64,000 nt of DNA, taken from Arenicola marina (lineage: Eukaryota; Annelida; Polychaeta; Arenicolidae). Position numbers and translations under genes: made by a program. This document shows, piece after piece, positions 5,620 through 64,000 of this stretch. Every line of letters starts with the position of its first letter. Within the stretch, counting starts at the first letter, position 1. Location of the stretch: positions 9,989,574 through 10,053,573 of the forward strand of contig OZ025248.1 of assembly GCA_964019135.1 (NCBI GenBank), given 5' to 3'. The notes under the pieces are model-generated. The model saw only the letters and a program-made list of their open reading frames with translations, was not told the origin of the DNA and made no database searches.

Positions 5620-8600
5620 ACCCTATGGTTAAATTGCTCCTGGGGGCCTTAAAGAGTCACAAATGGTAAGTTATGATATTTACAAATTATGTCATTATGC
5701 ATGGCATTTGTATTTAGATTGTTAATTGACTGTCTAAAAGAGATATTTGAACAAGGGATATATTAATAAAAAGTATATGGTAACTGTTGCCAGGTACAGA
5801 GAGTTTCTTATGAACAAAAACAGTGTGGCAATTGTTTATAATTTATAATTGTTTTATTTCTTATTTGTTAGTATTGTTTTATATTGTAACGTTTCTTTCT
5901 AATGGCCGTTTCGTTCTTGTTTCGTTTATCGTTTGTGATCGACTATAACACACTTAAGTCCACTTTTCTGTCCTTTATTCCATCGTATCTGTTTCCTTCC
6001 AAGCATGCGTATAACATCGACATATCCAATCAGCCATTGCAGCTTAATCCAAGTGACTCCCTAACCAACTGCCACCAACTAACTTACTGACCGACCGACT
6101 GACTCCTGACTACTCTCCCTTATCCCAAATTCCCCGCCTTTATATACCTCATCCTGCATCGTTATTGCCCGCTAGTTTTAGCTGTCTTGGTACCCCAGAC
6201 TTCTCACCACCCTCTACATAACCACCCGAAACCTCGCACCACCCCCTGCTTGACCACCCAAATATCGTACCACCCCCTCCTTGACTAGCTAATCCTTTAC
6301 TTATGGTTCCGACTGCTTCGGTCGGTACCCCAAATAACGTACCACCCCTCCTTGACCACCCCAACCTTTGCACCTCCCCTTCCTTGACCACACCAAATAA
6401 CATACCACCTCCTACTAAACTAGCTAATTCTCCACCGGTTGTTTCTCGCTAGTTCTGACCCCCAGATATCGCACCACCCCCTCCCTGTGTCGCTGACCTA
6501 CTACCGGCCGCGCAGCCACTTGACCTACTGCCGCACCCGAGATACATGCCAGACACCTACGGCGACCGCTGCTATATGATTGCCACAATACATATAAAAA
6601 CTACTCACTAGACATTCTACAATATACTCACTAATTCAACAAAATGTAAACACGCGAACCGACAGAGCCGCCTCAACTGTATATACCTATGCTCATTAAT
6701 CTTAGGATAACTGATAATGATCGAGGATTTCTCTTGAGAAGTCACTTTGGAAAGACCGCATTCAAGTATGGGTTGCTGCCATCAGTAAAAAAACCCAAAA
6801 ATAATATAATTGCCCAATCAGGAATTTAACTATAAGCAGAAGTTCGCTGTTCTAACAACTGAGCTATCCAGCTTCATGGCCCCCGTCATGGTGACCAGTG
6901 ATGTTGGAGTGTGCCTGCTTCTGAACCAATTTCTGAAACCCTTCCCACCTCGTCCAATGTCTACCTTTTGTTGAAATACCGGGTAGTAACTTTAAACATA
7001 TGAAGAACTGAATCATACAGATATATATGTGTGTGTGTGTTGCAACAAGCTGTTTGATTTATCTGAGCTTATGGTTGAATTTATAGCCCTGTAGACGTCA
7101 CACGGCACGTGTCTTGTGAGGACTGCTACTCCAGGGTGAATGGAGGCTTCGATCCAACAACAAACCAGGTCTGTGATGATAAGCTGTATGCCAACAACGT
7201 CTCCAAGACTACGATATCAATTACATTTCTATGATGAATCAATCTCCATGGTGAATAGACACTTTATTTGAGCTCCAAATGTGGTGTGTACTGTATACAG
7301 AATAAAAGTCAAATAAACGACTCATTTTCCTTAACTGTATAAAAATTATATAAGCTATTATACACCAGTACTGTTTTTGGAAAGTACATGCTATAGAAAT
7401 ATTAATCCATTTAATGACAATGGTATGTACATGAATTGTGAGGAAAATGGATCTAATAAACATATGTATTAATAACAATATCAACAGATGTAAATAAAAA
7501 AAAAAAAGCTTGTCTGTATATCAGTGGTAACTGGCCTGTTTTTCAAAAACGGATGGCGTTCAAATGTTACAACACACAAAACAAGGATTTACTGCACCGA
7601 TTGTTGAGAAACATGTGGAATTTACATATACTGAATCGCGGAATGCTTTCAATCTCGAACCAGCGACTAAACGTAGGGGACAGCGATGAGTATCTTTATG
7701 TTATATGTCCCTTCGGTGCTGTGTTCAATCAATTTAATCCATTTGCGCCTGACCCGCAACAGGTGGTGGTGTGTCAGAACAACTCAGCCAGTCGCCCTGT
7801 AGCCTGCAGCGTGCTTGCTCATGAACTCATCCACATGTTTGACTACTGCCGGGCCAAAGTGGACTTCACCAATCTGGAACATCTGGCTTGTACAGAGGTA
7901 ACGTTTCCTAGTCCTTACACAAAATAAGTGGCTAAACTTTCGTGAAATTCGTGAAACTCTGTATGAAACATAATCTGTTGTCGTCCATATGATGATAGGA
8001 TGGTATGATTTGGATTGTACAGAGGGAATCTCGATATTGACGTAATCATGTATTTGTGCCAGAATGTCTTGTACAGAAACATCTTCTCTTTTATTTGATG
8101 GGGTGGCCATAGATCCATGTTGCAAGTCCTCGTATTATTAACTGTAGTAACCTACCGGTAGTATATATATATGGCGTGACAAGCATCCTTGCACTGAAAG
8201 TATCTATGAAGTGTCGTAGGGCAGCGGGTATTTAGAGATGTAATGATATTTTGTGGATGCTACTTTCTGTTTGCAGATTCGCGCGGCCAGTTTCATGCAC
8301 TGCTCCTTTATGTCCGCCATGGTAGACGGAGATGCTTCCATCTTTACTCGAAGCAACAGACACATGGTGAGTTGTAGCGCGACGGGTGTTTCCTTGGTTA
8401 TAAACTGGAGATCATTGTTCCCCTGAAGGATGGTACTGTAAACATGATATGCCTGAAACAGTGGTTATTCCGTACATCCAGTATGCCTTACATGATCACG
8501 CGGAAACGCGGTTTTCGTTTATAATAAATTACTTGCTTGATTTTTATGCGTGGAGATATAAATTCGAAGTGCTTGTAACAACACGTAGATGGTGTATGCA

Positions 8601-8998
8601 TTTTTGCCATTATGACGTGTAGTCATGTACATGTCTCTGCGCCGGTCACAAAAACAATATTCTCATTACCTTGAAGTAATTACGATAAACCACAGAAGAT
8701 AAAATAACAGGACAAAAATGCTGAAATAGATTTCTATAGTTAACGAGCCTAGTATTTGCAAGAGACAATGACGCTATGTATCCCACTGTTTCAGGAGTGT
8801 GTTAAGAGAAAGGCTCTGATGTCGGTGTTAATGGTGCGCAACATTGATTTGGTCGAGGGCAAGCGCGTCGTAGATAAAGTGTTCGACAAATGCTACAACG
8901 ACTTGGAGCCGTTCGGCAGGATTCCCCGCAGGAACTCTCGCGATCCAGAGAAGATGCTGGCCGAGGGATACCTCTTTGGTTACTCAGACATCAGATGA
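5620..8998 (+). CDS. ATP23: ATP23, mitochondrial inner-membrane/intermembrane-space metalloprotease (5' exon(s) not found)
   Basis: Five exons join in phase: 5620-5665, 7087-7168, 7763-7897, 8277-8366 and 8795-8998 (stop TGA 8996-8998). All junctions are GT-AG. Together they give about 185 residues that match the C-terminal three quarters of the ATP23/XRCC6BP1 family (peptidase M76). Visible motifs in order are PMVKLLLGALKSHKC, SCEDC, VVVCQNN, the zinc-binding HELIH at 7820-7834 (HExxH) followed by FDYCRAKVD, LACTE, then KALMSVLMVRNI and FGRIP. Human ATP23 is about 246 residues, so roughly 60 N-terminal residues are missing. The first exon found starts with the last two bases of a codon, so at least one exon lies upstream. 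In yeast the family processes Atp6 and helps ATP synthase assembly. The gene is convergent with optineurin. Confidence 0.93.
6846..6876 (-). repeat. tRNA-like fragment, probably a tRNA-derived SINE remnant
   Basis: The reverse complement contains GGATAGCTCAGTTGTTAGAA, a good match to a tRNA 5' end and A box. Downstream, GTTAAATTCCTG is only a weak B box, and I cannot fold a proper anticodon stem. It therefore looks like a decayed tRNA-derived repeat inside the ATP23 gene and not a working tRNA. Confidence 0.35.
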
Positions 8999-11072: not shown

Positions 11073-11162
11073 CTATCTTACACATTCAGCAAGATGAACG
11101 TGCAAGCTGTCGAGATCCGGAAACACTTCATTACACCTTGGGCAGCAACAGGGTTGGGACAT
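11073..11162 (-). CDS. OPTN: Optineurin last exon: C2HC zinc finger and stop
   Basis: This 90-nt exon follows an acceptor TATCTTCCAG and encodes 29 residues ending LAECVR. It is too short to stand out as an open frame. Zinc ligands are the Cys pair of CPRC, the His of VHL and the Cys of AEC. Their spacing is the same as in the NEMO and optineurin C-terminal fingers. The exon is phase 0 and joins the preceding exon (11603-11677, DMTYATYP ... ADLHE). Confidence 0.92.
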   Translation of the reverse strand: MSQPCCCPRCNEVFPDLDSLHVHLAECVR

Positions 11163-14100
11163 CTGGAAGATAGAGAATAATTATGCAAACATAGGTCGCT
11201 CCATAACGGAATTCAGGATACAAACGGTTTTACAACAATTCTACACCGCATAGACATGACTGAAGTACCAGGTAATAACAAATGAGAATCTAGTGCTTAT
11301 GTCAGGCAGGTTTACCTAGTAGTGTTTTCTCTTTCATATGATTTTATTCCAGAGAATCTAGTGCTTATGTCAGGCAGGTTTACCTAGTAGTGTTTTCTTT
11401 CTCATATGAAATTGACAGCGAAGACAAGACGAGTATTAACATTGTACAGTAAACTACCAACTGGAGTGCTTTAACAGTATACTGAAGATAATACCGAAAA
11501 CATGTCACTGGGTGTTATTCAATAGTTGTTCAATGCATGAGGGTCTCGATTTATTTCTTGCAAAGGCATAGTTAGAGGTGGCATATCGCCTGGACCCCCA
11601 ACCTCGTGTAAGTCCGCCTCGTCATGTTCTCCATAGTAGTCTCGTCTGTTTCTCGGGTATGTCGCATATGTCATATCCTGATGAACCACCTTCGCAAGCA
11701 CAAAACGCAAGAGTTATTTCCTACTGCTATTACTATTGCTATATCCTACTACTACTTATTACTGCACCATGGTTACCAATATTAAAACATACCATTGCTG
11801 ATAGATTTTATAATGCGATGAATAAATAATATGGGAGACTTGTCAGATTCTGATAACTGTTTTTTAATGTTATGTGGGATGATTCAGCTAACGGACACCG
11901 TTTCAGTGATAACAATAGTCATTCGTTTTAGTGATAACAATTGTCATCGTTTCCGTGCCCAGTTTTCTTCCCTGCAGTATCTTTTAACCAAAGCCCGACT
12001 ATTCGCTTCCTTCAAGGACGACTATAATCAGCAATACGTTGAGATACTGCACAATATACTGATACAGGTAACGACTGTTGGCTGTCGATATTCACCAACT
12101 TTGTCTCCAGAATATTAAACATGTGGTATCCGATAAACTTTATATTACATAGGATAGATACATTATATTACAGAAGTCAGGTCACATAACGCCTTTCATT
12201 CATATCTATAGATATATACCATAACACATGTATGTCTTGAAGAGCTGACTACCACTAGCTAGATCAGACGACGCGTCCAGTTTTTGTATGTTTTTTTTCC
12301 TTCATTAAAAGTTTATTATGTTATTAAATATATTCATTTTGGCTGTTGCCATTTGATTCAGATATTTTTTTATTTTTTATTTATTTATTTCCTAAAATGG
12401 CACTTTGGCAATGACAATGGCAATGACAACGCGTCTGGTTAAGTGGTAAGGAAACCAGTTTGAACGTAGAGGAACACAAATACAGCTCTAGAAAGTCCCA
12501 CCTGATGGTTTGGTTGTCGCGTGCCGGGCCCTCCCAGCGACGCGTCAACGTGACGACGCTGCAACTCGGCCAGCGGATGGCTCGTGAGGTTTCCGATTTG
12601 TTCCTGAAGCTGTTGAATCGTTGCCCGCAACAGGTCCATCTCCTCTAACAGTTTGCTCTTCTCGGTTTCCGAGCGCACGCGGGCATGGTGCTCGGCCTCG
12701 AAATCCATCTTGTACAGATCGGCCTGTCATTTAAAGTGGCGAAAACCATGAGGAGTTACCGTGAGTATAAAGCAATGAAGCGCATATATTACGGTCGATA
12801 ATTAAACAAAACCCCGTCCTTCTTATAGTGGCATCCGCCCGTCCGTCCGTTCGTCCAACCTAACAATATGGACCGGCTATCATTGTAGTTCACTGATTAT
12901 CTGGTTAAGTATAGTACGAGGAGATAGCTGATGATCAGCTCGATTAGAGCGCATCAGAGCGCCATTAATCTTCGAAATGAATTACTAGGCAACACACGTT
13001 AATGATTGTCTAGCCTGGAATACGGGTCAGACAATTACTTCATCAGATAAACATATATGCCAATGTATATCAGCTAGAAGAGCAAATAACGAATACGCAG
13101 ACTTACCAGTCTTATCGAATTCAGTACTCAACCAAGTTATTACAAGATACATACCTAAGTATTTTGAAACGGCCCTTAAATTTAAGCTTTCTGAAAAGAG
13201 TACCACGCTGGACCATCCCTGAACCATTAGGTTTGCCGCAAAATTCTAATTGTTGTCATAACATCTCTAACCTGAGCCTGTAGCACAGGGACGGTTTCAA
13301 CATCGCTCTTTATTTGCTGGATCTTCAATTTCAGCTGCTGTATTTCGTCGTCTTTGCCACGTGCGGTATCTTCGGCGCCCATCAGCTTCGCCATGTAGCT
13401 ATCCACAGTCTCTTGCAGGTCGCGCATCTGCGCAGGCCCGACGCCACGGTTTGTCTGGGCAATCTTGTTAGGAAAGTACATTAAAAACAGTTAGCTGGTC
13501 GTTCATAGCATATTGTATTTTTTTTCAAAGTTTCACGGTATATACTATGACTGCGAGTACACAAGTTATAATATGGGTTTCACCAGACAAGTTAGAATAA
13601 TCAATTTACTCATCCTACATAATATCCTATGGTTAATTATTGGTGACCTTTTGACCTTCTGACCAAGGCAAGCATTAAACTGTTAATCCATATGATATAA
13701 AGCCCCTACTATGTTTCATCCCATTCTTGGATAATACTACCTTAGTCTCTTCTAGTTGCTTTCTGTACTCCTCATTCTTTGACGTCAGTTGACGCGCTTG
13801 GCTCACGACCCTGTCCATTTTCGTCCTGTATTCCTCCAATTTTTGCCTATATAATAAAATAATTATGATGATTACTGCTGTGACTGAGCACGCGATTTCT
13901 ACTAAAATGCACACGCAGCTAGGATTGCAAAGAATTGATTATCGCTACCAGCTCGTTTTTTTTTGTACGAGGCTGGACTGGAATAAAATGTGGTGTCAAC
14001 TCATTGATGTAGCATGAAATGATTGGCTCATTGAGGAGGTAGCATTGGGTTACTATTTAGAGCAACAAAGTCTTCATGTGATGGTACGCTAAGCCTAGTG

Positions 14101-17100
14101 GTCCATCGGCTATCAAGGACTGGTTACAATACCTCTCAGACCCTTATAGACACCAGCCCCACCCTGTCTTGGTGGTCTTACCTCTCACTAGCCAGGACAC
14201 CCTTCAGACCCTTATAGATACCAGCCCACCATGTCTTGGTGGTCTTACCTCTCACTAGGCAGGACACCCTCCAGGTCCTTATAGACACCAGCCCAACCCT
14301 GTCTTGGTGGTGTTACCTCTCACTAGCCAGGACACCCTCCAGGTCCTTATTGATACCAGCCCCACCCTGTCTTGGTGGTGTTACCTCTCACTGGCCAGGA
14401 TACCCTCCAGGTCATTATAGACACCAGCCCCACCATGTCTTGGTGGTCTTACCTCTCACTAGCCAGGACACCCTCCAGGTCCTTATAGACACCAGCCCCA
14501 CCCTGTCTTGGTGGTCTTACCTCTCACTAGGCAGGACACCCTCCAGGTCATTATAGACACCAGCCCAACCCTGTCTTGGTGGTGTTACCTCTCACTAGCC
14601 AGGACACCCTCCAGGTCCTTATTGATACCAGCCCCACCCTGTCTTGGTGGTGTTACCTCTCACTGGCCAGGATACCCTCCAGGTCATTATAGACACCAGC
14701 CCCACCCTGTCTTGGTGGTCTTACCTCTCACTGGCCAGGATACCCTCCAGGTCCTTATAGACACCAGCTCCACCCTGTCTTGGTGGTCTTACCTATCACT
14801 AGCCACGACACCCTCCAGATCCCTAACAGAGGCTCCAAGAGTACTGATCAGCTGGTCATCACGATTTCGCTGGTCGTCCTTTTCTTTGTGGATTCGATTC
14901 AATCTCTCTTCCAGTTGCTGATTTCTGAATATAGTAGAACATCTATTTGAAGGTAGGAGTCTAGAGCGTGATGGCGAGGCGAGCTGTCAACTAGAAATAC
15001 CTGGTTTCATCAAAATCAGTACACAAACTTCTATGTTTCTAATTGCGTTTGGTGACGAGATAAGAGTAATATCATATGGAATACTTCACACCCAGAAGCG
15101 TCTGAATGACTCAGCTCAACAAACAAGCGACGTAAGATAAAACAAGGGGCATATAGCCCCACCACTTACGATCACGCATAAGCTAACAGAGAATTGTAAA
15201 TATCCCTACATATTTAATTGCCGTTTTGTCCGTAACTTCTTAGTTTGTTATTGTTATATTTGAAATGATTACCTTTGGTTTTACAATTATGAGAGAATCA
15301 TACCATATTTATATACACCTATACAATATAATTTCGATACCTTCGATTCTATCGAAGATTTTGTTCTGATAACATTATTAAAGCTGCCTATATCGCGCTC
15401 TTTCCTGCCAAAACTAAAGAGGTCAAAATACAAATGAAAATCAGTCCTTGAATCCCCCGAAATTTCTTAGCCTTGCCCGTGATATAAATTTACCACAGGT
15501 TTTCATCTCAGTGGTAATCGTCATCAGTGTTTGGGCTTCGCGATGCTTTGTTATAAGTAGAGCGGTGTCCCGGAATAAAAAAAATTGCCATATCACAGCT
15601 GACATGGCGATGTTTATTGGGTTTCTGAATTTATAAAATGAAACAATCGACTTTTCTGCAAATCGTGATACATATATCTGTCGCTTAGCCTTAGTTTTTG
15701 GCGGGAAAAGCTCGACAAGCAGCTTTCAAAATTACAGCCGGTGAAATAGTTTCACGCGTCCAACCTATAATCCACAGAGGAGTGGAGCTGAGTTGTCTGT
15801 ACAACACTGGAACGCTACCACCAACCCCCCCCCCCCCCATGTTGTCAAAATAAATAAATATATTAATGCTTACTTTTCGTGCAAGCTATCTGCCTCCTTT
15901 TTGGCTGCGGTTGCTTTCGTGTTCGCCTCCTGAAGCTCATTGACGAGTGACAGCACCTGTGCCCTGGTGTTCTGGAGCTCCTCCTCGGCATACTGGGCAT
16001 ATCAAGAAAAGACATGAACTGCCTTGGAAACAACACAAATATGAATAGCATTTCCAACTCCGGACCTATTTAGGACACGATCCCTAAATCAGTTATTGCG
16101 TTATGTCAAATAACGGCGTTGTGTATTATTAACAGTAAAAGTAGTGAGTCTTCAGCTGTCCTATAAAACGACACGCTGTTCATACGTCATACAATCACCT
16201 TACACGCTGGTCATACGTCATACAATCACCTTACACGCTGGTCATACGTCATACAATCACCTTACACGCTGAACATACGTCATACAATCACTTTACACGC
16301 TGGACATACGTCATACAATCAACTTACACGCTATTCATACGTCATACAATCACTTTACACGCTGGACATACGTCATACAATCACCATACACGCTATTCAT
16401 ACGTCATACAATCACTTTACACGCTGGACATACGTCATACAATCAACTTACACGCTGGACATACGTCATACAATCACTTTACACGCTATTCATACGTCAT
16501 ACAATCACTTTACACGCTGGTCATACGTCATACAATCACCTTACACGCTGGACATACGTCATACAATCACTTTACACGCTGGACATACGTCATACAATCA
16601 ACTTACACGCTGGACATACGTCATACAATCACTTTACACGCTGGTCATACGTCATACAATCACTTTACACGCTGGACATACGTCATATAATCGCTCTACA
16701 CGCTATTCATACGTCATACAATCACTTTACACGCTAGTCATACGTCATACAATCACCTTACACGCTGGACATACGTCATACAATCACTTTACACGCTGGT
16801 CATACGTCATACAATCACTTTACACGCTGGACATACGTCATATAATCGCTCTACAAGCTATTCATACGTCATATAATCGCTCTACACGCTATTCAGACGT
16901 CATACAATCACCTTACACGTATTCATACGTCATACAATCACTTTACACGCTGGTCATACGTCATACAATCACCTTACACGCTGGACATACGTCATACAAT
17001 CACTTTACACGCTGGACATACGTCATACAATCGTTTTCACGCTGGACATACGTCATACAATCACCTTACACGCTGGACATACGTCATACAATCACCTTAC

Positions 17101-20100
17101 ACGCTGGACATACGTCATACAATCACTTTACACGCTGGACATACGTCATACAATCAACTTACACGCTGGACATACGTCATACAATCACTTTACACGCTAT
17201 TCATACGTCATACAATCACTTTACACGCTGGTCATACGTCATACAATCACCTTACACGCTGGACATACGTCATACAATCACTTTACACGCTGGACATACG
17301 TCATACAATCGTTTTCACGCTGGACATACGTCATACAATCACTTTACACGCTGGTCATACGTCATACAATCACTTTACACGCTGGACATACGTCATACAA
17401 TCACTTTACACGCTGGACATACGTCATACAATCAACTTACACGCTGGACATACGTCATACAATCATTTTACACGCTATTCATACGTCATACAATCACTTT
17501 ACACGCTGGTCATACGTCATACAATCACCTTACACGCTGGACATACGTCATACAATCACTTTACACGCTGGACATACGTCATACAATCAACTTACACGCT
17601 GGACATACGTCATACAATCACTTTACACGCTGGTCATACGTCATACAATCACTTTACACGCTGGACATACGTCATATAATCGCTCTACACGCTATTCATA
17701 CGTCATACAATCACTTTACACGCTAGTCATACGTCATACAATCACCTTACACGCTGGACATACGTCATACAATCACTTTACACGCTGGTCATACGTCATA
17801 CAATCACTTTACACGCTGGACATACGTCATATAATCGCTCTACACGCTATTCATACGTCTTATAATCGCTCTACACGCTATTCAGACGTCATACAATCAC
17901 CTTACACGCTATTCATACGTCATACAATCACTTTACACGCTGGACATACGTCATACAATCAACTTACACGCTGGACATACGTCACAATCACCTTACACGC
18001 TGGACATACGTCATACAATCACTTTACACGCTGGACATACGTCATACAATCACCTTACACGCTGGACATACGTCATACAATCACTTTACACGCTGGTCAT
18101 ACGTCATACAATCACTTTACACGCTGGACATACGTCATATAATCGCTCTACACGCTATTCATACGTCATACAATCACTTTACACGCTAGTCATACGTCAT
18201 ACAATCACCTTACACGCTGGACATACGTCATACAATCACTTTACACGCTGGTCATACGTCATACAATCACTTTACACGCTGGACATACGTCATATAATCG
18301 CTCTACAAGCTATTCATACGTCATATAATCGCTCTACACGCTATTCAGACGTCATACAATCACCTTACACGCTATTCATACGTCATACAATCACTTTACA
18401 CGCTGGACATACGTCATACAATCAACTTACACGCTGGACATACGTCATACAATCATTTTACACGCTATTCATACGTCATACAATCACTTTACACGCTGGT
18501 CATACGTCATACAATCGTTTTCACGCTGGACATACGTCATACAATCACTTTACACGCTGGTCATACGTCATACAATCAACTTACACGCTGGACATACGTC
18601 ATATAATCGCTCTACACGCTATTCATACGTCATACAATCACTTTACACGCTGGTCATACGTCATGCAATCACCTTACACGCTGGACATACGTCATACAAT
18701 CACTTTACACGCTACTCATACGTCATACAATCGTTTTCACGCTGGTCATAGGTCATACAATCACTTTCACGCTGGTCATACGTCATACAATCGGTTTACC
18801 TGCTGATCTTGCGAGCGAATATTCTTTTGGAGCAATGCCATCTGGCGTGTCAAGTCGTCCTCACGCTCCTTGTGACTTCTGATGAGTCCGGACAACTTGC
18901 TCTGTGCCTCGACCAATTCAGCTTCATTTTGTCGTAGATCACTCCGCAATTGCTCAACCTAAGGTAAGAATAACATAATCCTCATTAATGGGTTTGACTA
19001 GACTTTACCGCAGTTCAAGCTATAGATGGCCATGGTAACTAGCCCTCAGTATGATAGAGCTTTTATATAACCGGCATACCATATTATTCTGGGGAAAAAA
19101 TCAAATATATCTTAAAATATTTTCTCTTCAGACGTAAACTAATGTCTGGTCCCATAACAGAGGCCACAAAAGTAACCTACTAGCAATACAGGGTGTGATT
19201 TGAGAGGCAACATAGGCTTTATTACCAATAGATCCGATTGACGCCGCGCATTCTCCACCTGCATCTTTTCTTCGCGTTCGACACGCAATTGTATGAGGAG
19301 GTCGCTCACGGCTCCCTCGTGCTTCACTTTAATGTTCTCGCGAGATGTCCGCGGGGTCGACGCCCCCTCTGCCGCCCGCAGCGTGTCCGCACGCTCCTCC
19401 TCTTCTGTCTCAGTGGCAATGACGTCACTTCCGGATGCTGTACGTCCGGAACCCGCCGCGCTAAAATCTCCGCCAGGCGCGCTCTTCAGCAGGTTGACCT
19501 GGACGAAGCCAGCAGCCGCCTCGTCCTCATCCATTCCGTCCACGGAGGAGTGATCTAGGGAGCCGGTGGGCGACGCCATCTTGTACACGTGGAGCTGGGA
19601 TTGCAAAGAATTGTTTATTGCCACCAGCTCGTTCTTTTCTTGCGCCAGGCTGGACTTGATACTCGTCAGCTTTGTAAGCTGGTCCTGCAGGTCATTGACT
19701 CTGGACTCCAGCTCCGTCCGTCTCTGGTGTGTCTGGAGGACCTCCTGGTTGGCCTTGCTGCAGCGGCCCCGCAGATCCTCAGCGTCCGACCTCAGCGCCG
19801 CGTTCTCGTTGCTCAGATGCTGCCGCTCGAGTTTCTCCCGCTCCAGGTCAACAAGGAGGTGGCGAACCTCCTCTTGCATGGACGCCGTGCTGTCCGCCTC
19901 GCCATCACGCTCCAGACTCTTCACCTTAAAGTATAGTATATTACTTCCATGAAAATCCTAGATATTAAGTATCATTTACGGACGGATTATGAGCAATGTA
20001 AAGTCACGGATGACAACAATAGCCGGATAATCAGTGCACAGTCAAAAGTGGGAATGCGTAAGGTTATGTCTTGACCCATGATTGTGACGATATAATTTAG

Positions 20101-21120
20101 CTATAGGCGGATCTTAACTAAAAAATTAACCCCCGCAAAAATCAAATAATCCCCGCCGGAAATGTTAAAGATGTGATGCTAACCCCTGACAAAGGCAAAT
20201 TGTGTATCAAATTCAGTGAGCGAATGTAAATAATGGCCCAACCTGGTCCAGTTCCTTTTCCAAGGCCTTAATTCGCAAGTCTTTCTGGTCACATTCAGTC
20301 TTGAGCTCCATAACAACAACGCGTGCCTCTTCATTCTTGGCGCGCACTTCATCTCTGTCCCTCTCCCACGCTGACCTCATTAACATGAGCTGGTCGTGTG
20401 CCAACCTTATGGCGGTATTGTTTCCCCGAATGGTATCTGTAAGTGGAGTTTTATTATTGGTACAACTCAACGTCCTTAAGTAGTGTGTTAAGCTTAGGTG
20501 GTCGTTTCATACGTGTAAAAGCTATTAGCATTTTAACAAAGTATGCTTCGGTTCTCTTTTATATCAACAATTTATATTCTTGGTTTTAATCACATACGTT
20601 GGTTGCACACACATCTTTCGATTACTAATTATAGCAGAAAGACGACTTGCAACCCTTGTATCAGAATTGTATGTGATACAGAAGGTGGAGAAGCCAGAAC
20701 ATGTACGACCGGTATTGTCATTATTATTATCTGTTTTCTCATATCTGACCAACCTTTTAATTCAAGATTCTCCCTCCCCAGCTCCTGTACACGGGAGAAA
20801 GCCACTTCCAGGGATACATCAGCCGATGATACCATGGAGGACTGCCCCACCTCACTCATTCTTCTGCTTTCACACGGCATTGAGGCTTTGGGAAGGCTCA
20901 GAATGGAGATATCCGCCGAACTTCCATCGGACGAGGGGGTTTGCATGCCACTGGGGGGAGATTCGCCGCTTTCTGGCGACCTTGCTGACTGCGAACTCTT
21001 ATCACGATCGGCGTTGATTAACTCATCCAATCTGCCTTCACCCTGGGGGATAACCGCCTCTGCTGTATAGCGAGCAGCAGTGCCTTGTGCGGAGAAGACA
21101 CAAGTGCCACTCGCCTCCAT
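11073..21120 (-). CDS. OPTN: Optineurin-like ubiquitin-binding autophagy/NF-kB adaptor, complete coding region
   Basis: Eleven coding exons join in phase in transcript order: 20754-21120, 20243-20436, 19226-19924, 18800-18958, 15874-15992, 14793-14924, 13741-13846, 13272-13454, 12502-12723, 11603-11677 and 11073-11162. They total 2346 nt, 781 residues plus TAG. The start ATG (21118-21120) lies 8 bp after an acceptor, so a 5' UTR exon lies upstream. In order the protein shows: a Ser-rich N-terminus; a NEMO-like N-terminal coiled coil (ENLELKDTIRGNN); an acidic LC3-interacting motif DEDEAAAGFVQV (F about residue 327); a second coiled coil (SLVNELQEANTK, close to vertebrate optineurin); a UBAN region (ETVPVLQAQ then ADLYKMDFEAEHHAR); and a C-terminal C2HC zinc finger CCPRCNEVFPDLDSLHVHL. 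NEMO shares coiled coil, UBAN and finger, but the LIR and exon-5 similarity favour optineurin. Vertebrate optineurin is about 577 residues; this one is longer mainly at the N-terminus and middle. Two introns carry minisatellites that overlap 5' splice sites. Confidence 0.93.
11287..11408. repeat. Tandem duplication of ~65 bp
   Basis: The segment starting GAGAATCTAGTGCTTATGTC and ending near CATATGA occurs twice in a row, almost identical. The last bases differ (CTCTTTCATATG versus CTTTCTCATATG). Confidence 0.85.
12502..13454 (-). CDS. OPTN: Optineurin UBAN exons (13272-13454 and 12502-12723)
   Basis: The exon pair encodes DEIQQLKLKIQQIKSDVETV, then PVLQAQ and, across the junction, ADLYKMDFEAEHHAR. 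This is the UBAN/CC2-LZ motif that binds Met1- and Lys63-linked ubiquitin in NEMO and optineurin. Against human NEMO numbering as I remember it, V300, Y308, K309, D311, F312, E315 and R319 are kept. The positions equivalent to R316 and E320 are His and Val. The intron between the two exons is about 550 bp and splits the motif. Confidence 0.9.
13908..13985 (-). pseudogene. Decayed copy of part of optineurin exon 3, inside an intron
   Basis: The minus strand here reads as KNELVAIINSLQS, stop, LRVH. Real exon 3 (about 19580-19655) encodes KNELVAINNSLQSQLHV. The DNA matches from TCCAGCC through GAGCTGGT and CAATTCTTTGCAATCC. A CAG to TAG change and an A-run expansion break the frame. The fragment lies 62 bp upstream (transcript sense) of exon 13741-13846, in the intron after exon 14793-14924. 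Confidence 0.8.
14128..14830. repeat. 68-bp minisatellite overlapping an optineurin 5' splice site
   Basis: About ten copies of a 68-bp unit are marked by CTGTCTTGGTGGT every 67-69 bp. On the minus strand each unit carries GACCTGGAGGGTGTCCTGG and then AGTGAGAG|GTAAGACC. This is a near copy of the end of exon 14793-14924 plus its donor site. The exon's real donor (GATAG|GTAAGACC at 14793/14792) lies in the first unit of the array. The forward open frames across this block are by-products of the repeat. Confidence 0.9.
16165..18809. repeat. 31-bp minisatellite, about 85 copies, overlapping an optineurin 5' splice site
   Basis: The unit is 31 bp with core CATACGTCATACAATCA and a variable ACACGCTGGWC or ACACGCTATTC part. 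On the minus strand the unit reads CAGCGTGTAAAGTGATTG followed by TATGACGTATG. The junction of exon 18800-18958 reads CAGCAG|GTAAACCGATTG and then the same TATGACGTATG. So the first unit spans the exon end and its donor. Marker variants (GCTAGTCATACG at about 16733, 17722 and 18184; ATTCAGACG after each) show higher-order repeat blocks. Confidence 0.92.
19496..19531 (-). other. Predicted LC3-interacting region (LIR) in optineurin exon 3
   Basis: The codons give DEDEAAAGFVQV, with the core F-V-Q-V at 19496-19507. It has the [WFY]xx[LIV] pattern with acidic residues just before. Vertebrate optineurin has a Ser-rich segment followed by FVEI at the matching place between the same two coiled coils. 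Here the upstream acidic cluster stands where vertebrates use a TBK1-phosphorylated serine. Confidence 0.75.
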
Positions 21121-29950: not shown

Positions 29951-30867
29951 CTTGTTCGGTATTCTTTGTGATGTCGACCGCGGCTCGCTAGGACGTCCGC
30001 GCGCGATAAACTAGTCCGAGCAGTTTTATGTTGAAATTGTTGTTTTACAGACTCAACGAGATATAAAACATATATGCATCATAGATTTGAGATACTTTCA
30101 GTCTTGATTGCAAAATGTAAAAAGTCTAAGATGGCGTATGTAATTAGGCTGCTTTAAGGTCCTGGAGTAAAATGTACTAGGTGATCGCGCTACCGGCGCA
30201 CAGATCGGTGTACTGCATTTCAACATATATCTAAATACTTGCACATATGTCGAAATATTTACACCTATCATCAGTGTTTACGCATATGTTGAATTGATTA
30301 AACTTAGCAATGATGGGTAGCTGATGAATACATTATAAGACCCATAGTGGCATATTTCCGGCCCATTAAGACTCGTTTTCACATTGCCGGAGGTTTTACT
30401 CCATTGCCCATCCCCCCCTACCCCCACCCGCTGGACGCCTAAGCCTTATGCCCGGTATAGACCTTGTATATAAAGGTGGCCTACGCATATGCTTTCTAAT
30501 TTCGGTCCATGCGCCATGCCGTCCGGCCTATATTTGTATTTGGTGTAACAGGTTCCGGCAGGCGCGGATCCATGGACAGAAACAAAAACCGTCGGGGTCC
30601 ACTTTGGGAAAGCAGTGAAATAGTACCGGGGGGGGGGGGGGGGGGCTGAAACGGGGATAGTGGAAAACCACACTTGGAACGACGTAGAGTTTGCATTGAA
30701 ACGGACATCCTCGCTCAAAAGGGAGTGTCTGTGCATGTGTGGGTGGGTGGACGGGGGTAGGGGGGATCCGGACCCCCGAGACCCCGCCTCTTGGATCCGA
30801 TGTCCACTTACGTCCCCAACCAAGACTGCCAGGGTCTTTCACGATATCGGCAATAGCATTCTCAGCG

Positions 30868-33800
30868 CCACAGAGCTTTCACCGCCCGGCCAACCTTGCG
30901 AGGCAGGGCCACAGAGCTTTCACCGCCCCGCCAACCTTGCGAAGCAGGGCCACAGAGCTTTCACCGCCCCGCCAACCTTGCGAGGCAGGGCCACAGAGCT
31001 TTCACCGCCCCGCCAACCTTGCGAGGCAGGGCCACAGAGCTTTCACCGCCCCGCCAACCTTGCGAGGCAGGGCCACAGAGCTTTCACCGCCCCGCCAACC
31101 TTGCGAGGCAGGGCCACAGAGCTTTCACTGCCCCGCCAACCTTGCGAGGCAGGGCCACAGAGCTTTCACCGCCCCGCCAACCTTGCGAGGCAGGGCCACA
31201 GAGCTTTCACCGCCCCGCCAACCTTGCGCAGCAGGGCCTCAGAGCTTTCACCACCCCGCCAACCTTGCGAGGCAGGGCCACAGAGCTTTCACCGCCCGGC
31301 CAACCTTGCGAGGCAGGGCCACAGAGCTTTCACCGCCCCGCCAACCTTGCGAGGCAGGGCCACAGAGCTTTCACCGCCCCGCCAACCTTGCGACGCAGGG
31401 CCACAGAGCTTTCACCGCCCCGCCAACCTTGCGAGGCAGGGCCACAGAGCTTTCACCGCCCCGCCAACCTTGCGAGGCAGGGCCACAGAGCTTTCACCGC
31501 CCCGCCAACCTTGCGAGGCAGGGCCACAGAGCTTTCACCGCCCCGCCAACCTTGCGAGGCAGGGCCACAGAGCTTTCACCGCCCCGCCAACCTTGCGAGG
31601 CAGGGCCACAGAGCTTTCACCGCCCCGCCAACCTTGCGAGGCAGGGCCACAGAGCTTTCACCGCCCCGCCAACCTTGCGAGGCAGGGCCACAGAGCTTTC
31701 ACCGCCCGGCCAACCTTGCGAGGCAGGGCCACAGAGCTTTCACCGCCCCGCCAACCTTGCGAGGCAGGGCCACAGAGCTTTCACCGCCCCGCCAACCTTG
31801 CGAGGCAGGGCCACAGAGCTTTCACCGCCCGGCCAACCTTGCGAGGCAGGGCCACAGAGCTTTCACCGCCCGGCCAACCTTGCGAGGCAGGGCCACAGAG
31901 CTTTCACCGCCCCGCCAACCTTGCGAAGCGGGGCTACAGAGCTTTCACCGCCCCGCCAACCTTGCGCAGCCGGACCTCAGAGCTTTCACAGCCCCGCCAA
32001 CCTTGTGAAGTAGGGCCTCAGAGCTTTCACAGCATCGCCAACCTTGCGCAGCAGGGCCTCAGAACTTTCACAGCCCCGCCAACCTTGCTCAGCAGGGCCA
32101 CATAGCTTTCACCGCCCCGCCAACCTTGCGAAGGAGGGCCACAGAGCTTTCACCGCCCCGCCAACCTTGCGCAGCGGGGCTACAAAGCTTTCACCACCCC
32201 GCCAACCTTGCGCAGCGGGGCTACAAAGCTTTCACCGCCCCGCCAACCTTGGGCAGCGGGGCTACAAAGCTTTTACCGCCCCGCCAACCTTGTGAAGTAG
32301 GGCCTCAGAGCTTTCACAGCCCCGCTAACCGTGCACAGCAGGGCCTCAGAACTTTCACAGCCCCGCCAACCTTGCGAAGGAGGGCCACAGAGCTTTCACA
32401 GCTCCGCCAACCTTGTGAAGTAGGGCCTCAGAACTTTCACAACCCCGCCAACCTTGCGCGGCAGGGCCAAATAAGGTATGTAAGTGACGTCACAGACAGC
32501 GCGCGCTCACCTCTAGAAACAACCATTCTGGGTACAACGAGTCAGCGGGTCCCTATACTTTACTATGGGCGTCAAACTAGACTCGGTGATGTTTTGGATA
32601 TGAATGCACTGTTAGAGTTGAAAACCATGTGGAGTAAATGTTTGGGGCTGTACCTCCATACCATACTAGTTTTAAATCGAACGACGCTGGTTTTTTTGTG
32701 CGTTTCACGCAATTACAAAGAGCTCCCCGTGTTATGTATATGGGGCGGTGAAGTGTCATGTACCCAAAACCGGATTCGCTGGAGGTGAACGCGCGCTGTC
32801 TGTGACGTCACTTACAGACCCTATAGCTTTCACCGCCCAGCCAACCTTGCGAAGGAGGGCCACAGAGCTTTCACCGCCCCGCCAACCTTGCGAAGCGGGG
32901 CTACAAAGCTTTCACCGCCCCGCCAACCTTGCGAGGCAGGGCCACAGAGCTTTCACAGTCCCGCCAACCTTGCGAGGCAGGGCCACAGAGCTTTCACCGC
33001 CCCGCCAACCTTGCGCAGCCGGGCCTCAGAGCTTTCACCGCCTGGCCAACCTTGCGAGGCAGGGCCACAGAGCTTTCACCGCCCGGCCAACCTTGTGAAG
33101 CAGGGCCTCAGAGCTTTCGTCGCCCCGCCAACCTTGCGAGGCTAGGCCACAGAGCTTTCACCGCCCCGCCAACCTTGCGAAGCGGGGCTACAAAGCTTTC
33201 ACCGCCCCGCCAGCCTTGTGAAGCAGGGCCACAGAGCTTTCACAGTCCCGCCAACCTTGCGAAGCGGGGTTACAAAGCTTTCACCGCCCCGCCAACCTTG
33301 CGAGGCTAGGCCACAGAGCTTTCACCGCCCCGCCAACCTTGTGAAGCAGGGCCACAGAGCTTTCACCGCCCCGCCAACCTTGCGAAGCAGGGCCTCAGAG
33401 CTTTCACAGTCCCGCTACCTTGCGCAGCAGGGCCACCGAACTTTCACAGCCCGGCCAACCTTGCGCAGCGGGGCTACAAAGCTTTCATCGCCCGGCCAAC
33501 CTTGCGAGGCTAGGCCACAGAGCTTTCACCGCCCCGCCAACCTTGTGAAGCAGGGCCACAGAGCTTTCACAGTCCCGCTACCTTGCGCAGCAGGGCCACC
33601 GAGCTTTCACAGCCCCGCCAACCTTGCGCAGCGGGGCTACAAAGCTTTCATCGCCCGGCCAACCTTGCGAAGCAGGGCCACAGAGCTTTCACCGCCCCGC
33701 CAACCTTGTGAAGCAGGGCCACGTAGCTTTCACCGCCCCGCCAACCTTGTGAAGCAGGGCCACAGAGCTTTCACCGCCCCGCCAACCTTGTGAGGCAGGG

Positions 33801-36130
33801 CCACAGAGCTTTCACAGTCCCGCTACCTTGCGCAGCAGGGCCACCGAGCTTTCACAGCCCCGCCAACCTTGCGAGGCAGGGCCTCAGAGCTTTCACCGCC
33901 CGGCCAACCTTGCGAAGCGGGGTCTCAGAGCTTTCACCGCCCCGCCAACCTTGCGAAGCGGGGTCTCAGAGCTTTCACCGCCCCGCCAACCTTGCGAGGC
34001 AGGGCCACGTAGCTTTCACCACCCCGCCAACCTTGCGCAGCAGGGCCACCGAGCTTTCACAGCCCCGCCAACCTTGCGCAGCGGGGCTACAAAGCTTTCA
34101 TCGCCCGGCCAACCTTGCGAGGCTAGGCCACAGAGCTTTCACCGCCCGGCCAACCTTGTGAAGCAGGACCACAGAGCTTTCACAGTCCCGCTACCTTGCG
34201 CAGCAGGGCCACCGAGCTTTCACAGCCCCGCCAACCTTGCGCAGCGGGGCTACAAAGCTTTCATCGCCCGGCCAACCTTGTGAAGCAGGGCCACAGAGCT
34301 TTCACCGCCCCGCCAACCTTGCGAGGCAGGGCCACAGAGCTTTCACCGCCCCGCCAACCTTGTGAAGCAGGGCCACAGAGCTTTCACCGCTCCGCCAACC
34401 TTGTGAAGCAGGGCCACAGAGCTTTCACAGTCCCGCTACCTTGCGCAGCAGGGCCACAGAGCTTTCACAGCCCCGCCAACCTTGCGAGGCAGGGCCTCAG
34501 AGCTTTCACCGCCCGGCCAACCTTGCGAAGCGGGGTCTCAGAGCTTTCACCGCCCGGCCAACCTTGCGAGGCAGGGCCACAGAGCTTTCACCGCCCCGCC
34601 AACCTTGCGAGGCAGGGCCACGTAGCTTTCACCACCCCGCCAACCTTGCGCAGCAGGGCCACCGAGCTTTCACAGCCCCGCCAACCTTGCGCAGCGGGGC
34701 TACAAAGCTTTCATCGCCCGGCCAACCTTGCGAGGCTAGGCCACAGAGCTTTCACCGCCCGGCCAACCTTGTGAAGCAGGGCCACAGAGCTTTCACAGTC
34801 CCGCTACCTTGCGCAGCAGGGCCACCGAGCTTTCACAGCCCCGCCAACCTTGCGCAGCGGGGCTACAAAGCTTTCATCGCCCGGCCAACCTTGTGAAGCA
34901 GGGCCACAGAGCTTTCACCGCCCCGCCAACCTTGCGAGGCAGGGCCACAGAGCTTTCACCGCCCCGCCAACCTTGCGAGGCAGGGCCACAGAGCTTTCAC
35001 AGCCCCGCCAACCTTGCGCAGCAGGGCCTCAGAGCTTTCACAGCCCCGCCAACCTTGTGAAGCAGGGCCACAGAGCTTTCACCGCCCGGCCAACCTTGCG
35101 AAGCAGGGCCACAGAGCTTTCATCGCCCGGCCAACCTTGTGAAGCAGGGCCACAGAGCTTTCACCGCCCGGCCAACCTTGCGAGGCAGGGCCACAGAGCT
35201 TTCACAGCCCCGCCAACCTTGCGAGGCAGGGCCTCAGAGCTTTCACCGCCCCGCCAACCTTGCGAAGCAGGGCCACAGAGCTTTCACAGTCCCGCTACCT
35301 TGCGCAGCAGGGCCACCGAGCTTTCACAGCCCCGCCAACCTTGCGAGGCAGGGCCACAGAGCTTTCACCGCCCCGCCAACCTTGCGAGGCAGGGCCACAG
35401 AGCTTTCACCACCCCGCCAACCTTGCGAAGCAGGGCCACAGAGCTTTCACAGTCCCGCTACCTTGCGCAGCAGGGCCACCGAGCTTTCACAGCCCCGCCA
35501 ACCTTGCGCAGCGGGGCTACAAAGCTTTCATCGCCCGGCCAACCTTGTGAAGCAGGGCCACAGAGCTTTCACCGCCCCGCCAACCTTGCGAGGCAGGGCC
35601 ACAGAGCTTTCACCGCCCCGCCAACCTTGCGAGGCGGGGCCACAGAGCTTTCACCACCCCGCCAACCTTGCGAGGCAGGGCCACAGAGCTTTCACAGCCC
35701 CGCCAACCTTGCGAAGCAGGGCCACAGAGCTTTCACCGCCCCGCCAACCTTGCGAGGCAGGGCCACATAGCTTTCACCACCCCGCCAACCTTGCGAGGCA
35801 GGGCCACAGAGCTTTCACCGCCCCGCCAACCTTGCGAGGCAGGGCCACAGAGCTTTCACCACCCCGCCAACCTTGCGAGGCAGGGCCACAGAGCTTTCAC
35901 CGCCCCGCCAACCTTGCGAAGCAGGGCCACAGAGCTTTCACCGCCCCGCCAACCTTGCAAAGCAGGGCCACAAAGCTTTCACAGCCCCGCCAACCTTGCG
36001 AAGCAGGGCCACAAAGCTTTCACAGCCCCGCCAACCTTGCGAAGCAGGGCCACAAAGCTTTCACCGCCCCGCCAACCTTGTGCAGCGGGGCCACAGAGCT
36101 TTTACCGCTCCGCCAACCTTGCGCAGCCGG
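30868..36130 (+). repeat. GC-rich 41-bp minisatellite array, ~120 copies, interrupted by a MITE
   Basis: The unit contains GCCACAGAGCTTTCACCGCC and CCGCCAACCTTGCGAGGCAG in series, 41 bp in all. Units before 32470 are almost uniform. Units after 32826 are more varied, with a 40-bp variant (CAGTCCCGCTACCTTGCGCA) recurring about every 240-370 bp, which points to higher-order repeats. Because 41 is not a multiple of 3 and the unit has no forward stop, all three forward frames are open for hundreds of codons with the same peptide. The reverse strand is not open. I do not call these frames genes. Confidence 0.95.
32474..32822. mobile_element. 349-bp MITE inserted in the 41-bp array
   Basis: Ends are AGGTATGTAAGTGACGTCAC and the inverse of AGGGTCTGTAAGTGACGTCA. 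The inverted repeat continues through CAGACAGCGCGCGYTCACCTC, about 40 bp in all with three mismatches. ATA flanks both ends (32471-32473 and 32823-32825), and removing one copy restores an array unit of the CATAGCTTTC type. The interior has no open frame of note. Superfamily is unclear; a 2-3 bp duplication would fit Tc1/mariner or PIF/Harbinger types. Confidence 0.8.
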
Positions 36131-36134
36131 GCGC

Positions 36135-46432: not shown

Positions 46433-46591
46433 AGCTGCTTAGGGCGAACACGTGTCGAACATTTCCCGAAGGTGACGCAGTTTCACTCGTACTTCAGAGC
46501 TTTGCTCGTATGTTAATTATACTTAAACAAATGCACGTGTGACAGCGATGGGTTCTCCCAGGATAACATGGGATAACATGGCGACCAGCGA

Positions 46592-48004
46592 GTGAAAAGT
46601 CAAACGTTTGGGTGCTCTCGGAAACAACCTACGTTCCACGGAATTCAAACAGCTTTGGCGAACAAGAGACACGCCAAACTCATGGGCAAACACAATAGAA
46701 AGCGAAACAGAACTTGCAGCGGGGACTCTCGGAGCAAAAAACTCAATTTTGCATCTGAATTAAAGTCACCAAAAGTATCCATGGGCGATAATGCAACCAT
46801 AATGGAGGATACCTCGCAAGGTGACTGTGCCTCACAAGCCGCCCAGGACTCAGCCGCGGCCCCTGACGTGCTGCTCAAGATCAACTCGAAACTGGAGTAC
46901 ATTATATCTCAACTGGAAATACAACATACAGATGTCCACGGTACAGACGGCGTACTCGATCAGCTTGCTTTTGCAGCCAAAGAGCAGGGCGTCAACTCTG
47001 GACAGATCGCAACACACCAAGAAGAGATTGCGGATTTAAGAGGTGATGTAGCAACTCTAAAGGCAATCGTTATGAAGCAGGACACACAAATTCGAAATCT
47101 GAGGGATGAATGTATCGACCTCAAATATCGTTCAATGAAAAATAATGTGCTTCTTCACAACGTGCCTGAGCATACGTCGGTCCAGGGTGCACAGCCACGG
47201 GAGGACTGTGAGACCAAACTCAGACAGATATTGCACCAGAACGGGTTTAACGGTAATCCCACCATTGAGCGATGCCACCGCCTGGGACCCAAGATAAGCG
47301 ACACCCATGTCCGCCCCAGACCCATAGTGGCCAGAATACTTTGTCAAAAGGACGTAGACAATATGCTGGAGTTCTCCAGACGACATCTTCAGAAGGGTAA
47401 GGACTCTGTGAAGTTCACCCCCCAATTTCCAGCCGAGATACAGGAACGCCGCCGAGAGTATGGAGAGAGGGCACAGGCCGCCAGGGATCGAGCAGCCCCA
47501 CATCCAGTCAACACGCGTGTAACGAACGACGCGCTCTACATTAACAACGAGCGACAAAGAGACCTCCTTCCAGCTGTATCGGCACAGGACATCCTGACTC
47601 TCTCTCCACGAGAAAGAAAAGACGAAAGATTAGCTCTACCGGAAGTAACGCAAGGGGAGGTGATCACCCAGACCGGGGCTAGTGCCTTTGCGACAGTGGT
47701 CCCCGCCAAGACCTTGCAGGACGTCAGGAGAGTGTATCACCAACTGCTGCTTGCCCCCGAAAGGGCCGGGGCCATGCACAACATCATCGCCTATCGCCTC
47801 TCGGCCGACCAAGATGGATGGCAGGATGATGGCGATTATGGCTCCGGACGGCATGTGAGATACCTTCTCAAGCGCCACAACTTAGAACACATCGCAGTTG
47901 TCGTCACCCGCCGCTACACCGACCTCCACTCCAAGACTGACAGATACAAGCTCCTGGGGAAGGCCGTAGAATCTGCGCTGAAACAGCATAAGCCGGCCTC
48001 ATAA
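46592..48004 (+). CDS. LINE ORF1 protein with coiled coil, RRM-like domain and C-terminal IMPACT-like domain
   Basis: The 470-residue frame is intact. The N-terminus is basic (KHNRKRNR, nucleic-acid binding). Residues about 95-170 look like a coiled coil. Residues about 178-285 resemble the L1 ORF1p/Transposase_22 RRM and C-terminal parts (KNNVLLHNVPE, ERCHRLGP, RPIVARIL, FTPQFPAEIQERRREY). Residues about 362-468 resemble the IMPACT/UPF0029 (YigZ) fold: MHNIIAYRL, DDGDYGSGRHVRYLL, IAVVVTRRYTDL, then KLLGKAVESAL. In IMPACT proteins the same order is H-N-C/A-Y, DDGE-GTAG, VVV-RYYGG, A--AL. The GG after RYY is not kept here. ORF1p binds RNA and chaperones retrotransposition. The role of an IMPACT-like domain in it is unknown to me. 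An 884-bp spacer separates it from ORF2. Confidence 0.8.
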   Translation: MKSQTFGCSRKQPTFHGIQTALANKRHAKLMGKHNRKRNRTCSGDSRSKKLNFASELKSPKVSMGDNATIMEDTSQGDCASQAAQDSAAAPDVLLKINSKLEYIISQLEIQHTDVHGTDGVLDQLAFAAKEQGVNSGQIATHQEEIADLRGDVATLKAIVMKQDTQIRNLRDECIDLKYRSMKNNVLLHNVPEHTSVQGAQPREDCETKLRQILHQNGFNGNPTIERCHRLGPKISDTHVRPRPIVARILCQKDVDNMLEFSRRHLQKGKDSVKFTPQFPAEIQERRREYGERAQAARDRAAPHPVNTRVTNDALYINNERQRDLLPAVSAQDILTLSPRERKDERLALPEVTQGEVITQTGASAFATVVPAKTLQDVRRVYHQLLLAPERAGAMHNIIAYRLSADQDGWQDDGDYGSGRHVRYLLKRHNLEHIAVVVTRRYTDLHSKTDRYKLLGKAVESALKQHKPAS

Positions 48005-48888
48005 CTCAAATCGTTCGGATTACAAAGCAACCCACGCAATTCCAAGTGTGTATGTTTGCTATTCATGCTATTATTCATATCGTATGGATACCCTTGGAGA
48101 CACTTCTGTTGACTTTTGGCAACTTTTCTGCCTGTGCGATCCGCAAGTTCAGTGTTTTGTTCTGATGTCATGGTGTCCTGCGTTCAAGTGAGTACAGCTC
48201 AAAAAATTAGGCCAAACATGCCAGTATTGTTTCGGATTGCTCAGACCACTCACAAGGTATGTAGGTACAACTCAGGGGCTTGTTGTCACTATGTGTCCCT
48301 GACCCGTGTGTACCGGCACTATGAATTGGGCAGTGTTAACGTGCATAATACCTACCACCTCACTCACCCCTTAATCCTGATTATAACCGCCCTGTTTGCT
48401 TCGATAATTGTGCTTTAGGCCTGTTTCTAAGACACTTGATAAATTTGATACTCTGATGAACAACCGCCCTTGCAGTTACTGGCATATTTGTTACATCATG
48501 TTGACATTAAATGCCATAGCAATTGATGTCATGGGACCCCGTCCGTCATGCTGACGGATCTCTGACAACACAGAGATTTGTCTTTCTTCTCGTCTCGTCT
48601 CCGACGTATCATTGACCCCTCCCCTACTCTACCTCACGTGTTTAACGTTAGTATTATGCCTTTCTCGCCGCTTCCATGCACACATATCACCTCTCTGCAC
48701 TCTATCTTTCAACCCCTCTTCTTCATCACGTCTTTCTTTTTATTTTTTGCACCTATGTTGCCTTGCGCTGTTACAAATTTCATTATAGATTATGAACAAA
48801 GTATTTGGTACCGCGAATCTGAAACTGACTGTACTGCTGCAAATATGTACTGCTGTATATTTGTATCTTCTGGCTGCATTCTGCCATT

Positions 48889-58390: not shown

Positions 58391-63880
<5,490 letters not shown>

Positions 63881-64000
63881 GTGAGTTGGAGTTTGGTGGC
63901 AAATAAAACCTTTTCCGGCGTAGCGCGTAACCTTAGACAGCAATAACCATGGAATACCTCTCTCCAGATGCACCATTCGCTCATCGGATATTGTTGATGA

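Follow-up and report, generated by a model that had tools for sequence, protein, structure and literature searches.

The stretch of DNA analysed here (the window) comprises 64,000 nucleotides from the lugworm Arenicola marina (GenBank assembly GCA_964019135.1, contig OZ025248.1, positions 9,989,574 to 10,053,573 of the forward strand), and all coordinates below are positions within it. Its minus strand carries a NEMO/IKK-gamma-like gene whose coding part (11073-21120) is divided into 11 exons and encodes a product of 788 amino acids. Two introns of this gene hold minisatellites of different sequence, a 68-bp repeat at exon F (array 1) and a 31-bp repeat at exon D (array 2). Both were found by Tandem Repeats Finder (TRF) and lie on the intron side of minus-strand donor sites, as a preliminary description made from the sequence had reported. 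The features of the gene are as follows, with a slash marking the exon-intron junction.

20754-21120, 20243-20436, 19226-19924 (exon C), 18800-18958 (exon D), minus strand: coding exons 1-4
15874-15992, 14793-14924 (exon F), 13741-13846, 13272-13463, minus strand: coding exons 5-8
12502-12723, 11603-11689, 11073-11162, minus strand: coding exons 9-11
14793-14924, minus strand: exon F, with its last 30 bases (14793-14822) inside array 1; the junction agrees with the database protein P0001 at the protein level
14142-14822, minus strand: array 1, 68-bp tandem repeat, 10.0 copies, 92% matches (TRF)
18800-18958, minus strand: exon D, with its true donor CAG/GTAAAC at 18800/18799
16171-18799, minus strand: array 2, 31-bp tandem repeat, 85.1 copies, 89% matches (TRF)

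Nine of the exons were modelled by hand before any protein match, and the last two were located using pieces of P0001, the nr entry "inhibitor of nuclear factor kappa-B kinase subunit gamma-like protein [Arenicola marina]". The product of the gene model equals P0001 in length and is identical to it at 783 of 788 residues; at the protein level the two also agree on where each of the ten introns is removed. On this single protein match, an amphioxus origin of the DNA was set aside. P0001 contains a CC2-LZ domain, the ubiquitin-binding coiled coil of NEMO proteins (Pfam PF16516, 3.1e-16) and a C-terminal zinc finger (zf_C2H2_10, PF18414, 1.3e-07). The preliminary description had called the gene optineurin-like, after a protein related to NEMO. 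When the translation of the window was compared with PDB, NEMO gave the best match (2e-10) and the best optineurin only 4.2e-4. On this comparison and the nr name, the optineurin identity was dropped: by sequence similarity the host gene is nearer NEMO/IKK-gamma and very probably a NEMO-like gene of immune signalling.

Array 1 takes in the end of exon F with its donor and then runs for about 650 bp through an intron of 946 bp; BLAST carries it on to position 14132. On the minus strand, exon F ends ...GTGATAG/GTAAGACC, with its true donor TAG/GTAAGA at 14793/14792, and nine further units read ...GTGAGAG/GTAA(G or C)ACC. Compared with a consensus built from eight units, the end of exon F agrees at 27 of 30 bases. 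Only one of 2160 windows of the nine-exon coding sequence attains this level, namely that same exon end, and none of the eight other exon ends compared with the unit exceeds 13 of 30. A BLAST comparison of exon F with the window recovered seven of the nine copies (E 9.9e-07 to 5.1e-04), and since one of these matches, in a distal unit, is 38 bp long, the exonic share of the unit may approach 40 bp. The array 1 unit is thus made up of exon and intron sequence across the real junction. Each of the nine additional copies presents a decoy donor, five of them GAG/GTAAGA and four GAG/GTAACA. Scored with a position weight matrix (PWM) for vertebrate donors, the first type (10.16) exceeds the true donor of exon F (9.5) and the second falls below it (6.41). 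The array also contains an exact internal repeat of 156 bp at a spacing of 272 bp, or four units.

Array 2 takes up 2629 bp of an intron that is 2807 bp long, and one of its edges coincides to the base with the exon D donor. It can be segmented into 85 units, the first of which includes the donor. Among the 84 units in register with that donor, 79 keep GTA (27 GTAAG, 41 GTAAA, 10 GTAGA and 1 GTATG) and 5 read GTGAAA. The in-register decoy CGT/GTAAAG, found in 39 of the 84 units, is weak (PWM 2.28, U1 pairing -1.7). A further 18 sites, AAG/GTGATT, lie off register; they score 8.48 by PWM against 7.55 for the true donor, and their U1 pairing (-6.7) is below that of the true donor of exon D (-8.3). 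The preliminary estimate of about ten strong and about 85 weak decoys in the two arrays was therefore nearly right for the in-register copies, which number nine and 84, but missed the off-register sites. An exact repeat of 378 bp recurs within array 2 at a spacing of 989 bp.

All 20 splice sites of the gene (10 donors, 10 acceptors) were scanned for direct-repeat partners within 400 bp and compared with 600 random positions, from which those within 430 bp of the arrays were excluded. Only the two array donors exceed the 95th percentile (28/30 and 22/30, against 19). No comparable repeat was found at the other splice sites of the NEMO-like gene, where the highest value is 16 among the remaining eight donors and 18 among the acceptors, both short of the 95th percentile. 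Four splice sites placed by eye in a neighbouring M76-peptidase gene (7.5-9.0 kb) gave 19, 16, 14 and 14 of 30, the highest of these equalling the 95th percentile.

The final intron of the NEMO-like gene contains, away from any splice site, a direct repeat of two copies (starting at 11284 and 11352; 11284-11410) that are spaced 68 bp apart and share an exact run of 47 bp; this repeat is absent from the TRF list.

Protein P0001 fits the use of the exon-proximal donor at both array sites. If the reading frame is followed beyond exon F, the first complete codon behind the split one is TAA (offset 1), and beyond exon D a stop is met at offset 21. Use of a decoy at least one unit downstream would consequently truncate the protein before the CC2-LZ domain; two weak GT sites of array 2 (+12 and +19) precede the stop and are excluded from this statement. 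RNA mis-spliced in this way would be expected to undergo nonsense-mediated decay (NMD).

We consider it probable that both arrays are minisatellites of the type known in amphioxus as mirages, which would have arisen by tandem duplication of a junction segment and expanded later, with a normal mRNA made from the outermost donor. A short segment across the exon-intron junction (array 1) or at it (array 2) would have been duplicated in tandem, perhaps by replication slippage or microhomology-mediated repair. Once inside the intron, the additional copies may have multiplied through unequal exchange and the duplication of blocks, reaching some 10 units in array 1 and 85 in array 2; the exact internal repeats described above show block duplications within both arrays and, in this one haplotype, are compatible with length instability. 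Because the exon-proximal copy retains the true donor, the mRNA would be unchanged and the remaining copies would leave with the intron. Splicing at a decoy that lies at least one unit further on would add an in-frame stop, and such transcripts would presumably be removed by NMD; the arrays may be tolerated neutrally.

Local copying within the gene is also seen in two displaced copies of parts of exon C, which do not lie at donors.

13908-13982, minus strand: direct copy of the exon C segment 19582-19659 (BLAST, 85% over 67 bp, E 3.4e-15)
14944-14981, plus strand: inverted copy of the 5' boundary of exon C, 19895-19933 (BLAST, 87% over 39 bp, E 2.3e-06)

The direct copy sits in the intron that holds array 1. 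The inverted copy, in the intron that precedes exon F, consists of nine intron bases with the acceptor followed by the first 30 bases of exon C. Their arrangement hints at templated insertions from template-switch repair.

Several points weigh against a mirage-type origin or qualify it. The exon D side matches the majority unit at 7 of 13 bases and the second commonest variant at 8 of 13; before CAGC or TAGC, the majority ending is TC (42 of 81 units) and this variant ends in AC (21 of 81). Eight matches are reached by 20 of 2177 coding-sequence windows, and over 24 bases the 12 matches observed are reached by 21 of 2166. The bases directly before GT differ as well, being CAG in exon D and CGT in the array unit. 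Given this weak overlap, array 2 may have arisen just inside the intron. Identity of array 2 units to a chosen consensus averages 0.90 in the six exon-proximal units and 0.93 both in units 6-78 and in the last six; this counts in favour of the mirage-type reading, but the difference is small and confined to one edge. For array 1, the end of exon F could in principle itself have come from the array, as the data concern one species and one haplotype; a second protein search for other annelid NEMO proteins, which would bear on the age of the exon end, returned only P0001. That entry may be a cDNA or a gene prediction, which places the support for a normal mRNA at the protein level. Classical splicing work has shown that among equal sites intron-proximal donors often win, so that use of the outermost donor calls for an explanation, for example limits on exon length. 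In the scan, the 99th percentile of the random positions is 29/30 and their maximum 30, and neither array donor exceeds the former, whose height is presumably due to other local repeats in the gene. The preliminary description held that each unit spans the exon end and that the arrays look seeded at donor sites. Both statements are supported for array 1; in array 2 the exon end is matched only in part, and birth of the unit across the junction that it abuts is plausible, the donors of both arrays lying above the 95th percentile of random positions.

The same scan bears on the possibility that arrays arise anywhere in introns and that two merely happen to lie at donors, one of them with exon bases, which we regard as a serious though less likely account. 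It gains from the 99th percentile just mentioned, from the third TRF row of the gene (11899-11957) and the two-copy repeat at 11284/11352, which are both mid-intron, and from the fact that there are two cases in one hand-picked gene. When segments of 31 and 68 bp were given random positions in the gene with its arrays collapsed (6837 bp), the probability that both span donors was 0.004, rising to 0.008 if only partly intronic segments survive and to 0.017 for any splice site. These values are post hoc for a locus picked as striking, count array 2 as spanning the junction, which is unproved, and are not strong after such picking. Chance placement is harder to reconcile with the two of three TRF rows that touch donors, with the failure of any of the other eight donors or ten acceptors to reach the 95th percentile, and with the exon sequence truly included in array 1. 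The opposite proposal, that repeat birth is linked to donors, had been raised in the preliminary description and is not shown by two arrays in one gene with such crude probabilities. A mutational bias of this kind could stem, for example, from breaks at RNA:DNA hybrids or from forks that stall close to a 5' splice site, with template-switch repair to follow. Two independent arrays at donors would fit it, as would the displaced exon C copies that flank exon F, one of them inverted and spanning an acceptor as templated insertions would look. Those copies are nevertheless away from donors, the number of cases is tiny, nothing ties them to splicing or transcription, and amphioxus mirages also occur at 3' boundaries (PMC3087553). 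We hold donor-linked birth to be a good and testable hypothesis, though an unlikely explanation as matters stand.

Two further accounts carry less weight than these. The arrays might be kept for their extra U1 sites, either by strengthening exon definition or by suppressing premature polyadenylation, an activity of U1 known as telescripting. Array 1 has 16 donor-like sites with a score of 6 or higher within 645 bp and array 2 has 28 within 2623 bp, whereas the remaining intron sequence of the gene has 6 in 4391 bp. Such density follows automatically when a donor is repeated, however, and the in-register decoys of array 2 are often the weak CGT/GTAAAG (39 of 84), with no site in that array scoring at least 9; a selective benefit accordingly seems improbable. 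An assembly artefact, with repeats collapsed or expanded, is more improbable still: the exact 378-bp blocks of array 2 are where copy number would err, but the many unit variants, the clean junctions with unique exon sequence and the open exons speak for real arrays, and an assembly error would affect at most their copy number.

Mirage-type duplication, the explanation that we favour, has precedents. In amphioxus globin genes, minisatellite-like duplications of 5' and 3' exon-intron boundaries have been described, and earlier cases in Adh3 were named mirages; according to the accessible portion of that work, the copies often carry splice signals, regular splicing is undisturbed, length and somatic instability occur, and mirages are proposed as a source of new introns (PMC3087553). 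The lugworm arrays resemble them in repeating across or at exon-intron boundaries and in the splice signals kept by many copies (nine decoys in array 1, GTA in 79 of 84 units of array 2), and their units of 31 and 68 bp fall within the 10-72 bp given there for Adh3. They differ in belonging to an annelid instead of a cephalochordate, in lying at donors only instead of at both 5' and 3' boundaries, and in reaching 85 copies. The preliminary description, which mentioned amphioxus reports of minisatellites at the 5' ends of introns, was right in kind. In lancelet PGBD5, repeats of 60 and 108 bp likewise form two arrays in one gene that abut or overlap splice sites, although these have 2-7 copies and the host is again a cephalochordate (PMC3902484). 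Human segmentally duplicated genes show boundary minisatellites with a mean unit of 30 bp, longer introns and activated cryptic splice sites; in contrast to the lugworm, the copies there average about four, the duplicates are recent in primates and the variation is between paralogues, and the available text does not state that a unit repeats a 5' splice site (PMC2812944).

Intron gain offers another parallel. The Cryptococcus gene CNN00420 gained introns by repeat expansion (PMC2395259, as far as its available text goes), and gain through tandem duplication of AGGT sites was proposed by Rogers (1989, as cited in the accessible part of PMC3087553). These cases share with ours tandem copies bearing splice sites, generated by slippage or unequal exchange, but they yield new introns, whereas here one intron is enlarged. 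Large and variable minisatellites have been reported in an annelid intron, intron 1 of earthworm metallothionein, and are not placed across a splice site in the part of the report available (PMC12783039). Amphioxus VCBP genes contain intronic exon copies with splice sites, to judge from the available portion of PMC2632668, while the accessible text of a huntingtin paper holds nothing on repeats at splice sites (PMC2206037). A literature search found no mirage-type case in annelids, a weak negative, as most subscription journals fell outside its coverage. The anatomy of the arrays is thus of the mirage kind, known in amphioxus and here apparently present in an annelid; what is new so far would be, probably, the phylum, together with the presence of two such arrays in a single gene, copy numbers of up to 85 and decoys scoring higher than the true donor.

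Elsewhere in the window, a gene with a Peptidase M76 (ATP23-like) domain lies on the plus strand at 7460-8998, convergent with the NEMO-like gene. Non-LTR retrotransposon-like open reading frames occupy 46577-52052, with an endonuclease at 48829-50085, a reverse transcriptase at 50049-52052 and an upstream frame matching UPF0029. A 383-bp tandem cassette (59161-64000; 12.6 copies, 96%, TRF) extends to the end of the window, and by eye each unit appears to contain an EGF-like exon with its intron. About 120 units of a 41-bp repeat fill 30863-36132, split near 32470-32825 by a stretch of about 350 bp, perhaps a small transposon, whose ends appear by eye to be inverted (GTGACGTCAC). The high end of this repeat reads GCGCAAG/GTTGGC on the minus strand after a short open stretch. 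This edge might mark a third array linked to a donor, but we do not claim it as one, since the presence of an exon there is not backed by any gene model.

It is conceivable, though we think it unlikely, that minisatellites have arisen time and again at 5' splice sites throughout Bilateria and not just in amphioxus, where duplication and template-switch repair near donors would generate repeats that splicing and NMD allow to be tolerated, introns would lengthen from their 5' ends and the copies might later yield new introns. The lugworm genome, together with RNA, could show whether tandem duplication prefers donors. The case also bears on how the spliceosome settles on one donor ahead of nine further copies spaced 68 bp apart, five of which outscore it. 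Two arrays of apparent mirage type in one annelid gene would add a distant lineage to the mirages of cephalochordates, where they have been tied to intron gain.

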